Positions 81-7,929 of a stretch of 64,000 nt of DNA are shown piece by piece. Position 1 is the stretch's first letter, and each line of letters opens with the position of its first letter. Below the pieces are notes generated by a model. It was not told where the DNA came from and did no database searches. It worked only from the letters and a program-made list of their open reading frames with translations. The translations under genes were made by a program, and so were the position numbers. Source of the stretch: Xanthomarina gelatinilytica (GTDB taxonomy: Bacteria; Bacteroidota; Bacteroidia; Flavobacteriales; Flavobacteriaceae); assembly GCF_000348685.1 (NCBI RefSeq), contig NZ_ANLA01000007.1, positions 1 through 64,000 of the forward strand. The letters are read 5' to 3'.

Positions 81-2390
81 TTAAATCGAGTCTTTATCTT
101 TTTTTAACCATGAGAAAAACCCCTTTTTCTTTTTCTTTTTAAAGGGTTTTTCACTTTTTTTATTGCCAAACAATTGTTTAAAGAAGCTTTCTTCTTTTGT
201 AAGTTCACAATCAATAGCTTTTAATACTTTTTCCGAAGGCTTTACAAATCTGGCCTGACTTATGTTTTGATAGTTGGGGTCCGAATTCAGTTTTTGTAAA
301 AACTTGGCAAACATAGGTAAAGCAGAATTGGCTCCTTGACCAATACTTGTATTGCTAAAACCTATCTGCTGATTGTCGTTGCCAACCCAAACAACAGTAA
401 CCAGTTTAGGCATAATACCTACAAACCAGCCATCTTTATTGTCTTGGGTCGTTCCTGTTTTTCCAGCAATATCATTGGAGAAATTGTAAGTTGAACGCAA
501 CCTGCTTGCAGTACCATTGTTTACCGTTTCTTTTAAAAACTCCAACATTACCTGTCTGGTATCTTCGCTAAACGCTTCTGTTTTTGGTGTTTCAGGATTT
601 AAATCTTCATATGTTGCTATCACATGTCCATTCTTATCTTCAATTTTAGTAATAAAAACAGGTTTTGACGGCTTGCTTTGGTTTACATAAGTGGTATAAG
701 CAGTTGCCAGTTCCATGAGACTTAAGTTTGATGTTCCCAAAGCTATGGCTGGTACTTTTTCTATATCACTTTTAATGCCCATGGCATGCGCTTGTTCCAT
801 CACCTTGTCTATTCCCGTTTCTTGTAATACTTTCACCGAAATAGTATTTACAGAGCGACTTAATGCATATGCTAAAGAGTAATTTAAGTCTTTGTTTTCT
901 ACTTCCGAAGCATTTTTTGGAGTCCAATTATTAACATCTGTATAAGTTACCTCTTTAATTGAAAAATAGGAGCAAGGTTCCATGCCATTTTCTAGAGCAG
1001 CTGTGTAAACTATAGGTTTAAACGTAGAGCCAACCTGTCTTTTACTTTGTGAGACATGGTCGTATTGAAAATATCTGTAATCAATTCCCCCTACATAAGC
1101 TTTTATGGCACCTGTTGTAGGTTCTAAAGAAAGCATTCCTGCATTTAGGAATTTTGAATAATATTCCAAACTATCCAGTGTTGAAAGGTTTTCAACAGTG
1201 GGCTCATCCCAAGAGAACAATTCGGTTTTATGCTTTTTGTTCAAGGAATCCTCAATGGCTTTGTCTGATAAGTTTTGCTGTTTTAGCTTTCTATATGTTT
1301 TCAAACGTTTTTTGGCTGCCAAAAAAGCAGGTTTGTTTTTTAACCAAGGCGCATTTTGTCCATAAGCTTTTTCAAATTGACGTTGTAAGCTTGCCATGTG
1401 TTCTTGCATGGCCTCTTCTGCATAGCGTTGCAAATTATTATCCAAAGTGGTATAGACTTTTAAACCATCATGATAGATGTTGTAAGCTTCCCCATCTGGA
1501 TTTTTATATTTTTTTTCTTGAAGAATGGCATCCAACTGCTTTTTGATTTCTGCTCTAAAATAAGGAGCCAAACCTTGGTTTGGTGCATAATATTGATAAT
1601 CCAGTTCAATATCTTTATTGATTACGGCTTTTGCTTCCTGCTCTGTTATTAAGTTTTGATTTTTCATTAATTGAATCACCAAATCCCTACGTTGTTGCGA
1701 ACTTTCTGGGTACAATCTAGGATTATAGCCATTATTGGCTTTTAAGGTTCCAACAAGGGTTGCTGCTTGAGAGAGGTTTAAAAGGCGCGTTTTTGTGTTG
1801 AAAAATTTTTGTGAAGCACTTTCAATGCCATAGGTATTGTCTGGAAACGGAACTGTATTAAAATACAAAGTAAGAATTTCCTTTTTGGAGTAAATGTCCT
1901 CGATACGTCTGGCAACAATACTTTCCCTAAGTTTATTGACCACAATACTTAAAAAACCGTAATCTTTTCGTCCATATAGGTTTTTGGCCAATTGTAAGGT
2001 AATGGTGCTTCCACCTCCCGAAGATTTATCGGAAAGCAATATGGTTTTAAAAAACACCCTTAATAAACTGGTATTGTCTATACCATTATGTTCATAAAAA
2101 CGTGTGTCCTCGGTTGCTATTAGCGCATCGATTAAATGTTGTGGGAAATCGTTATAGCTTATGGACTGTCTGTCGTAAATGTAAAACTTTCCTATCAGGT
2201 CGTTGTTGGTGTCCAGAACCTGTGTGGCTTGGCTTTGCTTAAGGTTTGCCAATTTTTTGGCTGAAGGAATTTCTCCCCAAAAGCCAAAATAAATACTGCC
2301 ATAAAAGCATAGTAGTACTGCAAAAGTTATAAAAAAGCCATAGGCAATCCGTTTTGCCCAAGTTTTTAATTTCTGGTTTTTAGAAAACAT
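81..2390 (-). CDS. Class A penicillin-binding protein (PBP1A-type transglycosylase/transpeptidase)
   Basis: Bifunctional peptidoglycan synthase of 769 aa, a usual length for the family. It polymerises lipid II glycan chains and cross-links the peptides in the periplasm. One membrane anchor lies at about residues 14-36. The GT51 transglycosylase domain shows EDTRFYEH (94-101, catalytic Glu) and GGSTITLQLAKN (126-137). The transpeptidase domain has STFK (Ser455), SVN (513-515) and KTG (644). The C-terminus ends in a lysine-rich tail (about 745-769) of low complexity. The ATG at 2390 gives a short basic cytoplasmic N-terminus before the anchor, as expected. The downstream lipoprotein and DUF819 genes lie on the same strand but are not obviously functionally linked. 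The assignment is firm; the exact PBP1 subtype is not resolved. Confidence 0.95.
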   Translation of the reverse strand: MFSKNQKLKTWAKRIAYGFFITFAVLLCFYGSIYFGFWGEIPSAKKLANLKQSQATQVLDTNNDLIGKFYIYDRQSISYNDFPQHLIDALIATEDTRFYEHNGIDNTSLLRVFFKTILLSDKSSGGGSTITLQLAKNLYGRKDYGFLSIVVNKLRESIVARRIEDIYSKKEILTLYFNTVPFPDNTYGIESASQKFFNTKTRLLNLSQAATLVGTLKANNGYNPRLYPESSQQRRDLVIQLMKNQNLITEQEAKAVINKDIELDYQYYAPNQGLAPYFRAEIKKQLDAILQEKKYKNPDGEAYNIYHDGLKVYTTLDNNLQRYAEEAMQEHMASLQRQFEKAYGQNAPWLKNKPAFLAAKKRLKTYRKLKQQNLSDKAIEDSLNKKHKTELFSWDEPTVENLSTLDSLEYYSKFLNAGMLSLEPTTGAIKAYVGGIDYRYFQYDHVSQSKRQVGSTFKPIVYTAALENGMEPCSYFSIKEVTYTDVNNWTPKNASEVENKDLNYSLAYALSRSVNTISVKVLQETGIDKVMEQAHAMGIKSDIEKVPAIALGTSNLSLMELATAYTTYVNQSKPSKPVFITKIEDKNGHVIATYEDLNPETPKTEAFSEDTRQVMLEFLKETVNNGTASRLRSTYNFSNDIAGKTGTTQDNKDGWFVGIMPKLVTVVWVGNDNQQIGFSNTSIGQGANSALPMFAKFLQKLNSDPNYQNISQARFVKPSEKVLKAIDCELTKEESFFKQLFGNKKSEKPFKKKKKKGFFSWLKKDKDSI

Positions 2391-2482
2391 GGTGTCAATT
2401 TCTATTTACAAAGAAACGACATATTAAAAAGAAGCGTATAAAATGAATGTATTAAATATGAAAATTTGCTATTGGTACTCTT

Positions 2483-3178
2483 TTATTCAGCTTTTCTTAT
2501 GGCTAAATACCCATCTAAAGCTTTACCGTATTTAGAAGCTTTAACTTTTGGCGTTAGGGCATTGTTTATGGTGTCCAGCCATTTTATTTGCGCATCGTAA
2601 ACTTCTGTTAAAGCCAGATAAGGAGCTACCTCGCTATCCTTATTGTTTACGGCAAAATTTACCACATACAAATATCTGCTTTTGGTTAAATTGTTCATAG
2701 CTTTTGTGCTGGCTTCAATTTTAGCAGAGTCGTTTGCTTTTTTGGCATCAAAATTTTCCTTGATGAGATCTAGGTTTTTCTCATTGTATCTGGTAATCAC
2801 CTTTAAAAAATCTTCGTAAAGCTTTTGTTGGGTAGAACCTGTTATTTTAGCATCTGTCACAAAGTTTTTTAGAGTGGTGTTGATTTCTGTAACACCTTTA
2901 TCAGCAAAAAATACAATTCGCGTATTGTTTTCTTTGCTGTTGTTTTTGTCCAAACGTAAATAAAAAGCTTCTGGAGATTCCAGATCGCTTTGTAATTCAA
3001 ACTCCGAAACCCCATTTAATGAAACAGAATCTACAATAATGATGGAAGAGTCTTTTTCCTTTTCAAGGTATACTGTTCCTTTTTTTAAACCTTTTACATG
3101 ACCTTTAACAATTAAGTCAGGATCTTTTCCACAAGAAATTAAAGACACAAGAACAAAAACAAGGGCTAACTTTTTCAT
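2483..3178 (-). CDS. DUF4369-type lipoprotein
   Basis: Predicted outer-membrane or periplasmic lipoprotein of 231 aa. I chose the ATG at 3178 rather than an ATG nine codons upstream because it starts a compact signal peptide (MKKLALVFVLVSLISC) with lipobox LISC and Cys16. The region after the Cys (KGHVKGLKKGTVYLEK) resembles the DUF4369 domain found at the N-terminus of Bacteroidota thioredoxin-like lipoproteins. No thioredoxin CxxC follows, so this is the DUF4369 part with an alpha-helical, Lys/Asp-rich C-terminal half. The gene lies 52 bases downstream of the DUF819 gene and may be cotranscribed with it. Its function is unknown. Confidence 0.8.
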   Translation of the reverse strand: MKKLALVFVLVSLISCGKDPDLIVKGHVKGLKKGTVYLEKEKDSSIIIVDSVSLNGVSEFELQSDLESPEAFYLRLDKNNSKENNTRIVFFADKGVTEINTTLKNFVTDAKITGSTQQKLYEDFLKVITRYNEKNLDLIKENFDAKKANDSAKIEASTKAMNNLTKSRYLYVVNFAVNNKDSEVAPYLALTEVYDAQIKWLDTINNALTPKVKASKYGKALDGYLAIRKAE

Positions 3179-3230
3179 ATTACTATTAAGAATTTTGGAG
3201 CGCAAATATCATATAAAAATTAAAGATATA

Positions 3231-4541
3231 CTAACCTCCTGCAGCGAATTTCATTAAAATAGTACAGCCTATGGCAGCAATGGTTCCTATGGCATAACCA
3301 AACACAGCCAGAAGCACACCAACAGTGGCTAAAGATGGATGAAATGCCGAAGCGACAATAGGAGCAGAGGCTGCGCCACCAACGTTTGCCTGGCTTCCAA
3401 CAGCTAAGAAAAAATAAGGAGCTCTAATAAGCTTGGCAATCAGTATCAATAACATGGCATGTATGCTCATCCATACCAAGCCTACAGCAATCAATCCAGG
3501 ATTATCAAAAATGGACATTAAATCTATTTTCATACCTATGGAAGCCACAAGGATGTAGATAAAAACACTTCCAAATTTACTGGCTCCTGCACCTTCGTAA
3601 TTTTTGGCTTTTGTAAAGGACAGTAATATGGCAACAAGTGTTGCGATACTAATCATCCAAAAGAACTGGGAATCTAAAAAGGTAAAGGTGTTTCTAAGGG
3701 TTTTAGACTCTATATTGTTGACCACCCTTTCAAAATAAGGTGCTAAGAAATTGGCACACATATGAGAGATGCTAACAGTTCCAAAAGCAATGGCAACAAT
3801 AATCATGATGTCTGTTAAAGAGGGATTTCGTTTGACGCTTTTGGCAAAGGTGGTTACTTTTTCCTTTAAAGCTTCTATGGCAGAATTATCTGCTCTTAAC
3901 CATCTATCAATAGCTTTAGATCTTCCAATTCCTATTAAAATTATGGCCATCCATATATTGGCAACCACGATATCCACAAATACCATTTTACCATATTCGG
4001 ATTGGTTGTATTCAAAAATTTCAAGCATTGCTGTTTGGTTGGCTCCACCACCAATCCAGCTTCCTGCTAGGGTAGAGAGACCTCTCCAAACGGCATCAGG
4101 CCCAACACCACCAACAGTTTCTGGAGAAACCATAGAAATCAATAAAATGGCAATGGGTCCTCCAATTACAATCCCTACAGTTCCTGTAAGGAACATAACC
4201 AAGGCTTTCCAGCCCAAATTAAATACAGCTTTTAAATCGATGCTCAAGGTCATTAACACCAATGCTGCAGGTAATAAATACCTACTGGAAACATAATATA
4301 AGCTGGTGCTGTGCTTTGCCACTTCGCCAGAATCTGAAGTTGTTTCCCATTCTGGGGCAATAAGTCCAAGAGTGGTTAAAACGGCTGGTAACATATATGC
4401 CATAAAGAGGCCAGGAACAATTTTATAGAATTTTGGCCAAAACCCTGTTTTAATGGATTCTGTATAAAAAATAAAACCTAACGTAAGCATTAGGAGTCCA
4501 AAAACAATCGTATCGTCTGTAAAAATTGGAGCTTGTTGCAT
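3231..4541 (-). CDS. DUF819 family integral membrane protein
   Basis: Polytopic membrane protein of 436 aa with about eleven hydrophobic segments. Glycine-rich turns such as GSWIGGGANQTA and VGSQANVGGAASAP near the middle and C-terminus are typical of DUF819 (YjcL-like) proteins. Members of the family are thought to be transporters, but no substrate is established to my knowledge. The ATG at 4541 is followed by a short polar stretch (MQQAPIFTDDT) and then the first membrane span. The Arc-like gene of the next operon ends 69 bases upstream, so readthrough from that operon is possible. Transport of a metabolite is inference only. Confidence 0.85.
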   Translation of the reverse strand: MQQAPIFTDDTIVFGLLMLTLGFIFYTESIKTGFWPKFYKIVPGLFMAYMLPAVLTTLGLIAPEWETTSDSGEVAKHSTSLYYVSSRYLLPAALVLMTLSIDLKAVFNLGWKALVMFLTGTVGIVIGGPIAILLISMVSPETVGGVGPDAVWRGLSTLAGSWIGGGANQTAMLEIFEYNQSEYGKMVFVDIVVANIWMAIILIGIGRSKAIDRWLRADNSAIEALKEKVTTFAKSVKRNPSLTDIMIIVAIAFGTVSISHMCANFLAPYFERVVNNIESKTLRNTFTFLDSQFFWMISIATLVAILLSFTKAKNYEGAGASKFGSVFIYILVASIGMKIDLMSIFDNPGLIAVGLVWMSIHAMLLILIAKLIRAPYFFLAVGSQANVGGAASAPIVASAFHPSLATVGVLLAVFGYAIGTIAAIGCTILMKFAAGG

Positions 4542-5888: not shown

Positions 5889-6749
5889 TTAATGATTTAA
5901 AGTACCTGCATTTACAATAGGTGATGCATCTTTATCACCACATAATATAACCATTAGATTGCTAACCATGGCTGCTTTGCGTTCTTCGTCTAAATCAACA
6001 ATTTGTTTTTTGCTTAATTCTTCAAGAGCCATTTCCACCATACTGACTGCACCTTCAACAATTTTATGTCTTGCTGCAACTATGGCAGTAGCTTGTTGGC
6101 GTTTTAGCATGGCATTGGCAATTTCCTGCGCATAAGCCAAATAGCCAATTCTGGCTTCCAGGACTTCTATTCCTGCAATGGATAGACGTTCGTCTATTTC
6201 TTTTTCCAAAGCTTCGCTCACTTCATTAACACTGGATCTTAAGGTAATGTCTTCGGCAAGGCCTTCATCGGCAAAATTGTCATAAGGATACATGCTTGCT
6301 AGTTTTCTAACTGCAGCATCTGTTTGCACACGCACAAAATTTTCGTAATTGTCCACATCAAAGGCTGCTTTATAGGTGTTTTGTACTCTCCACACTAAAA
6401 TGGTGCTTATCATTACTGGATTGCCTAACTTGTCATTCACTTTTAAACGTTCACTATCAAAATTACTGGCACGTAAAGAAATTTTCTTTTTGGTATAAAA
6501 CGGGTTTGTCCAATAAAACCCATTTTTTTTAATGCTGCCCACATATTTTCCAAAAAGTAATAAAACCCTGGAGTTGTTGGGTTGTACCATGATAAACCCT
6601 AAGGCAATAAACAAGGCAGTTGCAATGGATAAGACAAACCATGGATTTTTATAGGCAACTACAGCTGCTATACCACCAATAAATAATACTAAAAACACAA
6701 ATAGCATTAAATAGCCATTGGCAGGAACAATAATTTTTTCTTCTTTCAT
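5889..6749 (-). CDS. SPFH (stomatin/prohibitin/flotillin) domain membrane protein
   Basis: A 286-aa SPFH-domain protein. Two hydrophobic segments lie near the N-terminus (about residues 14-34 and 37-56). They are followed by the SPFH beta/alpha domain (VLLLFGKYVGSIKKNGFYW onward) and a helical coiled-coil stretch in the second half (EVSEALEKEIDERLS, IANAMLKRQQATAIVAARHKIVEGA). Such proteins oligomerise in the membrane and scaffold microdomains or protease complexes. It is the first gene of an operon with DUF4177, alpha/beta hydrolase and Arc-like genes. No NfeD or FtsH partner is present nearby, so the operon differs from the classic SPFH-NfeD pair. Family assignment is firm; its cargo is unknown. 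Confidence 0.9.
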   Translation of the reverse strand: MKEEKIIVPANGYLMLFVFLVLFIGGIAAVVAYKNPWFVLSIATALFIALGFIMVQPNNSRVLLLFGKYVGSIKKNGFYWTNPFYTKKKISLRASNFDSERLKVNDKLGNPVMISTILVWRVQNTYKAAFDVDNYENFVRVQTDAAVRKLASMYPYDNFADEGLAEDITLRSSVNEVSEALEKEIDERLSIAGIEVLEARIGYLAYAQEIANAMLKRQQATAIVAARHKIVEGAVSMVEMALEELSKKQIVDLDEERKAAMVSNLMVILCGDKDASPIVNAGTLNH

Positions 6750-6752
6750 GAG

Positions 6753-6798
6753 ATGATATTTAGTTGGTTAATTTATTATGATATTAAAATGATATCAT
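6753..6798. promoter_or_regulatory. Repeated ATGATAT motifs upstream of the SPFH operon
   Basis: ATGATAT occurs at 6753-6759, 6778-6784 and 6789-6795, the last being part of a perfect palindrome ATGATATCAT (6789-6798). The last two copies are 11 bases apart, about one helical turn. They lie immediately before the SPFH start codon (6749). Ribbon-helix-helix repressors bind short repeated sites, so these may be operators for the Arc-like protein of this operon. This is inference; AT-rich DNA makes chance copies possible. Confidence 0.35.
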
Positions 6799-6835
6799 AA
6801 AGATATGTAAAAATTATTTGCCTTCAAAATTAAGT

Positions 6836-6852
6836 TTGGCACGATGATTGAA
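6836..6852 (+). promoter_or_regulatory. Sigma-54-like promoter (-24/-12)
   Basis: The plus strand reads TTGGCACGATGATTGAA. Against the RpoN consensus YTGGCACGRNNNTTGCW every fixed position matches except the -12 C, which is A. GG and the -12 G have the canonical 10-base spacing. It points into a gene-free interval and would start a transcript near 6862. No activator-binding site was identified. Confidence 0.5.
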
Positions 6853-6861
6853 ATATGTCAT

Positions 6862-6982
6862 GTAAATTGATACTACACTAAAAACTTTTTAAAGAGTGTG
6901 GTTACTTTATAAAAAGGTAGTATTTCATATTTTTGGTTGGTTAGTTAAGAAAAGTGTCCTTTTTAGGATGCTTTTCTTTTTT
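6862..6982 (+). ncRNA. Candidate small RNA from the sigma-54-like promoter
   Basis: This interval between two minus-strand genes runs from the expected start of the sigma-54-like promoter to an intrinsic terminator, about 120 nt. It contains pairable segments ATACTAC (6870-6876) with GTAGTAT (6917-6923) and CACT (6876-6879) with AGTG (6895-6898), so a branched stem is possible before the terminator. I see no open reading frame of note. Existence as a transcript is inferred from the promoter plus terminator pair on the same strand; nothing identifies an RNA family. Confidence 0.4.
6947..6982 (+). terminator. Intrinsic terminator on the plus strand
   Basis: Fourteen-base arms AAGAAAAGTGTCCT (6947-6960) and AGGATGCTTTTCTT (6965-6978) enclose a TTTT loop and are followed by T residues to 6982. 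In plus-strand RNA the two non-Watson-Crick positions are U-G and G-U wobbles, so the stem is complete. In minus-strand RNA the same positions become A-C mismatches. The orientation is therefore plus, although no plus-strand protein gene lies upstream. Confidence 0.65.
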
Positions 6983-7002
6983 ATACTTGTAGAAAAGAGA
7001 AT

Positions 7003-7929
7003 TTAGTTAATAAAATCTGTAATGGCTGGAATGAGCTCTGGACTTAACTTTCTAAAAGACTCGTTATAGGATTTGGAGTTTTCAAGATCGTCCCCTAGTA
7101 TGGGAAACATGACATGGTTCATGTTTTCAATTAATAACAATTTGCCATTTTGTGCGTTGTTTTTTAATAGTTGGGCTTCAGCTACAGGAACCTGTAAATC
7201 TTTGGTGCCATTTATTATCAAAACAGGGATTTGTAACACTGCAATGTGCTCTTGAGGGTTATACTGCATCCAACTGCTCATAAAGGCTTGGTTTTCTTTG
7301 CTGAATATGGATTCCAATGCAGGAGGATAGTTGGCAGTGGTTTCTCCAGCTTTTAATTTTTCAAAAGCCACTTTGGATGCGTCTTCCAGTCCAGGAACGG
7401 TTAGTTTTATTTGTTCCAGGATCACTTGGTCTATAGGTTTTGCTGAACCTGCAATGGAAACAAATCCGGATACATTTTCTTTGGATGCAAGCATCCCAAC
7501 CAAGCTTCCTTGGCCATGACCTATTATATATAGCTCTTTAAAGGTGTTTTTTTCTTTGAAATGATTGACGATTGAAATTGCATCAGAAACAAAATCATTG
7601 AAACCAATGTTTTTATCAACCCTTCCTTTTCTAATCTGTTTTACGATGCGTTTGTCATATCTAAATGTGGCTATGCCTTGGTTTGTTAAACCTTCTGCCA
7701 ATTTTTTTAGAATATTGTTTTTTTGAAAATTTTGGTTTCCATTTCGGTCGGTTGGACCAGAATCCCCAATTATAATGGCCAATGGTGGATTGTTGATGTC
7801 ATTGGGTGTAAGTAAGGTGCCATCTATGAAGCTATTTACGGAAACATCTTCTGTATTAAAATTGTTTTCTTGGGATATTATCAAATTGCTTAGACCAACA
7901 AAAAACATTAAAAGACACTTGAGTTTCAT
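7003..7929 (-). CDS. Secreted alpha/beta hydrolase paralog lacking the nucleophile serine
   Basis: A 308-aa paralog of the hydrolase at 4780-5715, with a signal peptide (MKLKCLLMFFVGLSNLIIS) and the same DRNGNQ, NGTKDLQV and ENMNH motifs. The nucleophile elbow reads GHGQGS: Gly139 (codon GGC) stands where the other copy has Ser (AGT). The oxyanion segment is IGDSGPTD instead of IHGSGNVD. The Asp and His of the triad remain. Established alpha/beta-hydrolase chemistry requires the elbow nucleophile, so this copy is probably a pseudoenzyme or a binding protein. The gene is otherwise intact and of full length. It is separated from the SPFH operon by the candidate small RNA region. Confidence 0.85.
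   Translation of the reverse strand: MKLKCLLMFFVGLSNLIISQENNFNTEDVSVNSFIDGTLLTPNDINNPPLAIIIGDSGPTDRNGNQNFQKNNILKKLAEGLTNQGIATFRYDKRIVKQIRKGRVDKNIGFNDFVSDAISIVNHFKEKNTFKELYIIGHGQGSLVGMLASKENVSGFVSIAGSAKPIDQVILEQIKLTVPGLEDASKVAFEKLKAGETTANYPPALESIFSKENQAFMSSWMQYNPQEHIAVLQIPVLIINGTKDLQVPVAEAQLLKNNAQNGKLLLIENMNHVMFPILGDDLENSKSYNESFRKLSPELIPAITDFIN

Follow-up and report, generated by a model that had tools for sequence, protein, structure and literature searches.

What is encoded on the plus strand of the gap between an SPFH/Band 7 gene (5889-6749) and an alpha/beta hydrolase gene (7003-7929), both of which lie on the minus strand? A sequence-only reading of the 64,000-nucleotide stretch of Xanthomarina gelatinilytica DNA analysed here (the window) had proposed that an RpoN-type promoter, one position off the consensus, and a terminator frame a small RNA of about 120 nt in this gap. 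This proposal has held up well: the site does depart from the consensus at a single position, rpoN is present in the genome, and the TTGGCACG element is kept in all eight genus genomes and in many other genera. The evidence from promoter, structure, invariant element, terminator and synteny makes a strong case, and we conclude that the gap very probably holds a stand-alone, sigma-54-promoted small RNA gene of the Flavobacteriaceae, predicted from sequence and belonging to no Rfam family (Table 1).

Table 1. Features of the predicted small RNA gene and of two further genes carrying its 3′ element (positions in the window unless a contig or locus is given).
Feature	Location	Strand	Basis or remark
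Conserved small RNA gene	6836-6984	+	sigma-54 promoter, RNA, terminator
Sigma-54 (-24/-12) promoter TTGGCACG-N4-TTGA, full site TTGGCACGATGATTGA	6836-6851	+	one mismatch to consensus; genus 8/8
Predicted transcription start (+1, +/-2)	6863	+	inferred from spacing to the -12 element only
5′ structured domain	6863-6932	+	fold, cognate-arm pairing test, fold z-scores (39 dereplicated sequences, own included)
Stem closing the 5′ part of the 5′ domain	ATACTAC 6870-6876 with GTAGTAT 6917-6923	+	predicted fold
Inner hairpin inside the closing stem, loop region GAGTGTGGTTACTT; then TTTCATATTT 3′ of the stem		+	
Invariant, mostly single-stranded element TTGGTTGGTTAGTTAA	6933-6948	+	most of the listed relatives have TTGGTTGGTTAGTTAGT
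Intrinsic terminator with T tail; 14-bp stem at 6947-6978	6947-6984	+	terminator prediction
Gene (a) with element	G000:C20:40886-42090, locus L262, gene 1440-2510	+	element 7 nt past stop codon
Gene (b) with element	G000:C4:189038-190023, locus L264, gene 1539-2474	-	rearranged element, UURG tetrads kept: UUUGGUUAGUUAAGUUAGUUGGU

Promoter and predicted transcript

Across the 64 kb, TTGGCACGATGATTGA is the sole match to TGGCACGNNNNTTGCW with at most one mismatch. Shuffled windows contain a mean of 0.30 such matches, and because 27 of 100 shuffled windows also have one, the single match is not significant when taken alone; matches with up to three mismatches to the sigma-54 consensus are likewise as frequent as expected in the window (71 observed, 70.8 expected). 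It is the combination of promoter, RNA and terminator that stands above chance, since it is conserved throughout the genus and far beyond. The -12 element of this copy is TTGA, not TTGC. When the promoters of 104 RNA copies, collected with a loose promoter filter, were combined into a profile, positions left free by the filter proved to be conserved as well, with T at the two positions before TGG, and C/T and then G/A after TGGCA.

The presence of rpoN, on which such a promoter depends in the sequence-only reading, is clear for this genome (PF04552, E 5.1e-53), and rpoN occurs in 394 of 397 family genomes, so its co-occurrence with the RNA is uninformative. A 9-mer count upstream of 43 promoters lacking the SPFH palindromes described below gave no convincing activator site, and the commonest 9-mer was, as judged by eye, the start of a neighbouring gene. 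Elsewhere in this genome (G000:C9:123106; L271, minus 2107) a sigma-54-like site, TTGGCACACATATTGG, lies 56 nt before a 138-aa frame.

As in sigma-54-dependent small RNA genes generally, the -24/-12 promoter sits at a fixed spacing upstream of the RNA, and the RNA has an intrinsic terminator of its own and no conserved coding frame. The 14-base stem, described earlier as complete in plus-strand RNA only, is indeed predicted as a terminator on the plus strand alone; the terminator is kept in relatives, though the sequence of its stem has changed. Around +1 many relatives read TGTAA, and their 5′ stem begins at about that point.

Conservation and distribution

Promoter, RNA and terminator are kept in all eight genus genomes examined. 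In an alignment of the eight, GTTTGGCACG, ATTG, most of the RNA and CATATTTTTGGTTGGTTAGTT are identical throughout, and divergence sets in 3′ of the terminator. A DNA search with the whole gap (6750-7002) against 40 genomes, own included, matched 18, among them all seven other genus members, and some of the matches in other genera span the SPFH leader alone. Between 6769 and 6816 this leader carries strongly conserved TGATATCA-type palindromes, with up to 92% identity in other genera, and the same stretch occurs in one genome (L011, G024) in which the small RNA is about 73 kb away. This stretch probably serves the SPFH-DUF4177 operon as operator or promoter.

The association of promoter and element was measured by scanning one genome per species for the 3′ element TTGGTTGGTTAGTTARKNAAA without any promoter in the pattern. 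From at least 118 stretches this gave at least 118 distinct element matches, three of them too near a locus edge and 115 with enough upstream DNA. The motif TGGC[AG]N6TTG occurs in the 70-nt stretch 41-110 nt upstream of 94 of the 115 matches listed; among 3982 control windows drawn from the same loci, each of 84 nt, 14 contain it. Among the 21 listed matches that lack it, five have a variant or differently spaced motif (L031, L040, L070, L108, L129), another (L113) has the motif with a single base changed, and at least five lie 5-32 nt past the stop codon of a protein gene (L066, L068, L089, L125, L133). In a wider count of 134 distinct element matches, 99 of 106 motif occurrences fall 80-99 nt upstream of the element.

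The joint pattern of promoter and element was found in 67 of 397 family genomes and 45 of 237 genera (the reversed pattern gave none), and in its strict form it is missing from the other 330 genomes. When genomes were drawn from the whole order and the gap range was altered slightly, six of 296 genomes had it, all six among the 50 of the same family and none among the 246 others. Bearers among those listed include Psychroserpens, Gelidibacter, Winogradskyella, Formosa, Algibacter, Tamlana, Lacinutrix, Mangrovimonas, Seonamhaeicola and Kordia, and in Kordia algicida (L059, minus strand, about 3594-4074) there are three tandem copies of the RNA, each with its own sigma-54 motif and terminator. 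A relaxed promoter and element pattern matched only two of 199 Flavobacterium genomes, both with a diverged candidate RNA (L252, 1500-1660, plus strand; L253, 1500-1660, minus strand) that comprises a sigma-54 motif, a hairpin bearing UUUGGUUGA, UUGGUUGGUUAGGUUU and a terminator, with UUUAAUAAUUUGGUUGAUUAUUAAAAUUGGUUGGUUAGGUUU standing before that terminator. At C9:164820 in the genome of the window, where a sigma-54-like site precedes the element by 97 nt, we considered a second copy of the RNA and rejected it, as the element falls inside a coding frame.

The RNA gene is a fixed landmark of its locus. At least one of the six neighbours seen in the window is kept at 98 of the 104 RNA copies, always on the same side and strand; the six copies without such neighbours are four Kordia copies and two at the end of the available DNA stretch.

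Structure of the RNA

The 124-nt RNA is predicted to fold with a z-score of -3.83, and none of 200 shuffles was equally stable. The arms ATACTAC and GTAGTAT, noted as pairable in the sequence-only reading, do pair with each other in this fold. In 21 of 26 folded sequences (own included; drawings read by eye) a stem closed by the 5′ end encloses a variable hairpin and directly precedes the element, which is mostly open and followed by the terminator; the other folds belong to L013, L024, L025, L055 and one of the L059 copies.

RNAalifold on a MAFFT alignment of 16 sequences recovered the terminator alone, because the 5′ domain is too divergent to be aligned, and for this reason we tested its pairing directly by comparing cognate with non-cognate arms. 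The mean pairing energy of a 5′ arm was -8.17 kcal/mol with the 3′ arm of the same RNA and -4.59 with non-cognate arms (n=39 dereplicated), and none of 5000 permutations did as well as the cognate pairing; the same was true at a 70% identity cut (n=12; 0 of 5000). The 5′ domain has a mean z-score of -2.13 over the 39 sequences, with 32 of them below -1 and 23 below -2, and its length ranges from 34 to 70 nt between copies. The mean unpaired probability is 0.70 for the first 15 nt of the element and 0.40 for the 5′ domain.

The element at the ends of other transcripts

The element is also found outside the small RNA. Two other genes of the same genome with sigma-54-type promoters, here called (a) and (b), carry it before their terminators, in a rearranged form in the case of (b), and have the sigma-54 motifs TTGGCATGTTGTTTGT and TTGGCACGTGTTTTGA, respectively 53 and 50 nt before their start codons. 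Both encode proteins that by eye are apparently exported, that of (b) as a lipoprotein, and neither protein from this genome matched a Pfam family. Similar arrangements occur in other genomes for gene (a) (L133, L147, L161, and L170, the last judged from the start and 3′ end only) and for gene (b) (L066, L166, L167).

The element is not exclusive to sigma-54 genes. There are 37 element matches that lack a promoter motif within 110 nt; in the DNA available, a motif lies farther upstream of 10 of them and is missing upstream of 27 (several of these with little upstream DNA). Two further element sites in the genome of the window (L259, L270) showed no sigma-54 motif in the stretches examined, and two terminator sites that follow an apparent LuxE/YHS operon in random stretches (names assigned by eye) showed none in the upstream DNA checked; with the 27 of 37 cases and these four sites, exclusivity is ruled out. 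In three loci (L096, L145, L146) a similar stretch, close to CGACCAAACCATTGTGAAAAACTGATGATTTTTCATAAT and slightly changed in L096, is followed by the same element and a terminator within about 90 nt past a LuxE-like gene (name by eye), and may be another small RNA. More generally, two UURG repeats stand before two of 113 predicted terminators in 40 stretches from genomes that bear the small RNA (control windows 0 of 452), and before none of 58 terminators in 20 stretches from genomes without element matches (control windows 2 of 232).

A candidate base-pairing target

Over 20 positions, AUG included, UUCAUAUUUUUGGUUGGUUA in the RNA is able to pair with UAACCAACCAAGAAUAUGAA, which is the start region of another gene of this genome and whose leader is at G000:C20:65225; 19 of the pairs are Watson-Crick and one is G-U. 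The predicted product has FG-GAP repeats and a type-IX-type sorting tail. Over seven orthologues (an eighth, in G006, was left out as the gene is cut at a contig end) the duplex energies are -29.7 (own genome, G000), -21.7 (G005), -16.8 (G003), -13.2, -11.8, -10.6 and -9.4, with 0, 0, 1, 20, 28, 62 and 75 of 200 shuffled leaders, in the same order, doing as well. The predicted pairing is thus strong in the first three and weak in the other four: the complementarity at this start codon is strong, and it is poorly conserved.

A pattern search over eight genomes for AACCAAC, with 133 matches against 90 for the reversed pattern, had hinted at an enrichment in leaders, although five among the matches listed were the small RNA itself. 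This hint was not upheld by a permutation control, in which AACCAAC preceded the first ATG of four of 595 genes in genomes bearing the small RNA where the permutations averaged 2.49 (rank 8 of 35), without clear enrichment; in genomes without the element the count was 0 of 307 against a mean of 0.63.

Alternative explanations

The suggestion that the RNA lies opposite the SPFH leader and could act on that gene has not fared as well as the rest of the sequence-only reading. SPFH is the divergent neighbour at 51 of 104 loci, and in the genome of the window its leader has AACCAACTAAAT, which is able to pair with the element. However, a distance of 114 nt separates the predicted start of the RNA from the SPFH start codon (6749), and the RNA runs away from that gene. 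AACCAAC is absent from the SPFH leader of some genus members (e.g. L003, L006), and at 22 or more loci the place of SPFH is taken, with a start within 160 nt, by DUF819 or by the gene that matches window 2483-3205, while the RNA is kept. The RNA therefore does not need SPFH, and action in trans is favoured; we reject SPFH as a cis target, and regard control of SPFH by leader antisense, by promoter interference or in any other specific manner as very unlikely. It is slightly less likely still that the sigma-54 motif is incidental, with the RNA made by a housekeeping sigma factor or as the 3′ end of some other transcript. The motif is not significant by itself within the window, as noted above, but its position upstream of most elements and almost no control windows, together with the conservation of the filter-free promoter positions and the lack of any plus-strand frame of 60 aa or more between 5478 and 7073, argues against this reading. 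Short open frames that by eye cross the inner hairpin in some relatives might suggest a peptide gene or a leader-peptide attenuator, the least credible of these possibilities: the variable length of the domain between start and element disfavours a shared reading frame and led us to reject a small protein, and the RNA stops at its own terminator, beyond which the next gene is on the opposite strand.

The real choice concerns the function of the invariant element in this sigma-54-promoted small RNA. Base pairing is favoured by the mostly unpaired state of the element and by the complementarity of UUCAUAUUUUUGGUUGGUUA to the start region of the FG-GAP gene, and we advance it as a tentative mechanism. 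Alternatively, and just as tentatively, the element with its UURG repeats may be not a pairing seed but the binding site of a hypothetical protein, or an RNase-protection site, in which case the small RNA could act as a free copy and draw an RNA-binding protein away from mRNA 3′ ends that have the same element, much as CrcZ and RsmZ titrate RNA-binding proteins, or the element could serve to stabilize 3′ ends. With 16-17 nearly invariant nucleotides the element is longer than a usual seed, it occurs just past the stop codons and before the terminators of some protein genes, which disfavours a pure small RNA seed, and in gene (b) it has been rearranged with the UURG tetrads preserved. The UURG repeats before terminators of RNA-bearing genomes (2 of 113, against 0 of 452 control windows) point the same way, but the count is small and control windows from genomes without the RNA do contain such repeats, and each RNA has one copy of the element, unlike multi-site decoys. 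Given the element on mRNAs, a poorly conserved target and no clear enrichment of AACCAAC, we hold the base-pairing and protein-binding readings to be about equal.

A model for the function of the RNA

The gene, promoter, structure, terminator, conservation and fixed location are computational results; for the expression, activating signal, targets and effect of the RNA we infer the following. RNA polymerase with sigma-54 (RpoN) would begin transcription near 6863 when an enhancer-binding activator becomes active, and an RNA of about 115-120 nt would end at its own terminator near 6982. It would consist of a 5′ domain closed by its own 5′ part, the single-stranded, G/U-rich linker UUGGUUGGUUAGUUAG and the terminator hairpin, and would act in trans through this linker rather than on SPFH in cis. 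Its most likely role would be that of a non-coding product of a stress regulon under sigma-54, possibly one for envelope or protein-quality stress of the kind reported for sigma-54 in Flavobacterium psychrophilum (PMC9723704). If pairing is the mechanism, the linker may bind C/A-rich (AACCAACC) translation-start regions of secreted or envelope proteins and block their translation.

A broader and more doubtful proposal takes in the mRNA 3′ ends of genes (a) and (b). The RNA might be the free-standing member of a shared 3′ module that, with the 3′ ends of these two sigma-54-type genes, provides the non-coding side of an envelope-stress response under sigma-54 in Flavobacteriaceae, the common G/U-rich element either lowering the synthesis of secreted proteins or titrating a protein that binds 3′ ends.

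Relation to known systems and significance

To our knowledge, regulatory RNAs of Bacteroidota are little known. In Proteobacteria, Qrr, GlmY, CrcZ and NrsZ are sigma-54-dependent small RNAs, and their families are, as far as is known, all included in Rfam. Like these, the present RNA stands alone as a gene, between a -24/-12 promoter and a terminator of its own, but it comes from another phylum and has no Rfam match: the Rfam 15 covariance models, at the gathering cut-off, matched nothing at the RNA in the window or in 20 small RNA loci (elsewhere in them only tRNAs), and in another 20 loci, most of which carry the element on other transcripts, they found Flavo-1 and DUF805b at other places. 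GcvB offers another parallel, as its G/U-rich R1 region binds C/A-rich translation-start regions and blocks translation. In both RNAs a G/U-rich linker lies single-stranded between hairpins, and for the present one we propose binding to C/A-rich leaders; the difference is that the targets here are putative and that the GcvB covariance model matched neither the window nor the 20 small RNA loci.

Searching the literature with the letters of the element gave no bacterial RNA containing it among the matches listed, and a search for sigma-54 small RNAs of this bacterial group gave a single study from the group among the matches listed (PMC9723704). That sigma-54-dependent small RNAs are rarely described in Bacteroidota, as had been remarked of this locus, fits with the one RNA listed there, Rfp36, which is putatively regulatory and is assigned a sigma-54/SM4 promoter in F. 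psychrophilum (Table 2 in the available part of PMC9723704). Its identifier is THC0290_N_0510, with a transcription start site at 840245. By its description there, Rfp36 resembles the present RNA in its sigma-54-type promoter and bacterial family; in Flavobacterium, its host genus, the relaxed pattern of promoter and element is nearly absent. The diverged candidate RNA of L252 and L253 could be Rfp36 or a relative, and Rfp36 itself would be the Flavobacterium member if it has a sigma-54 promoter, a 5′ hairpin and UUGGUUGG before its terminator. The available part of the same paper describes a sigma-54 regulon of protein quality control (chaperones and proteases), envelope stress, gliding and exported proteins (PMC9723704). 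It also describes Rfp18, like the present RNA a conserved flavobacterial small RNA, whose deletion lowers two metalloprotease mRNAs; by that description Rfp18 is widely conserved across Flavobacterium, a genus that nearly lacks the present pattern, and its sigma-54 dependence is not stated in the part available (PMC9723704). In Bacteroides thetaiotaomicron, the FopS/GibS small RNAs share one motif among several RNAs, the FopS motif being 41 nt long, and RbpB is reported to bind mainly single-stranded parts of small RNAs and also 3′ UTRs (available part of PMC11697453). Compared by description, FopS/GibS differ from the present RNA in numbering 14 paralogues in one genome, and the part available does not mention sigma-54 dependence (PMC11697453).

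With a fixed location, a promoter, defined ends, a structure and an invariant single-stranded element, the RNA is well enough defined to be deleted, and it gives a direct handle on the action of sigma-54 through RNA in flavobacteria. As the element also occurs at the 3′ ends of genes with sigma-54-type promoters, the shared-element model can be tested with few mutants; if true, the module would play the part in these bacteria that the sigma-E and Cpx small RNAs play in enterobacteria. The RNA is thus a good starting point for the study of RNA control in a poorly known group.
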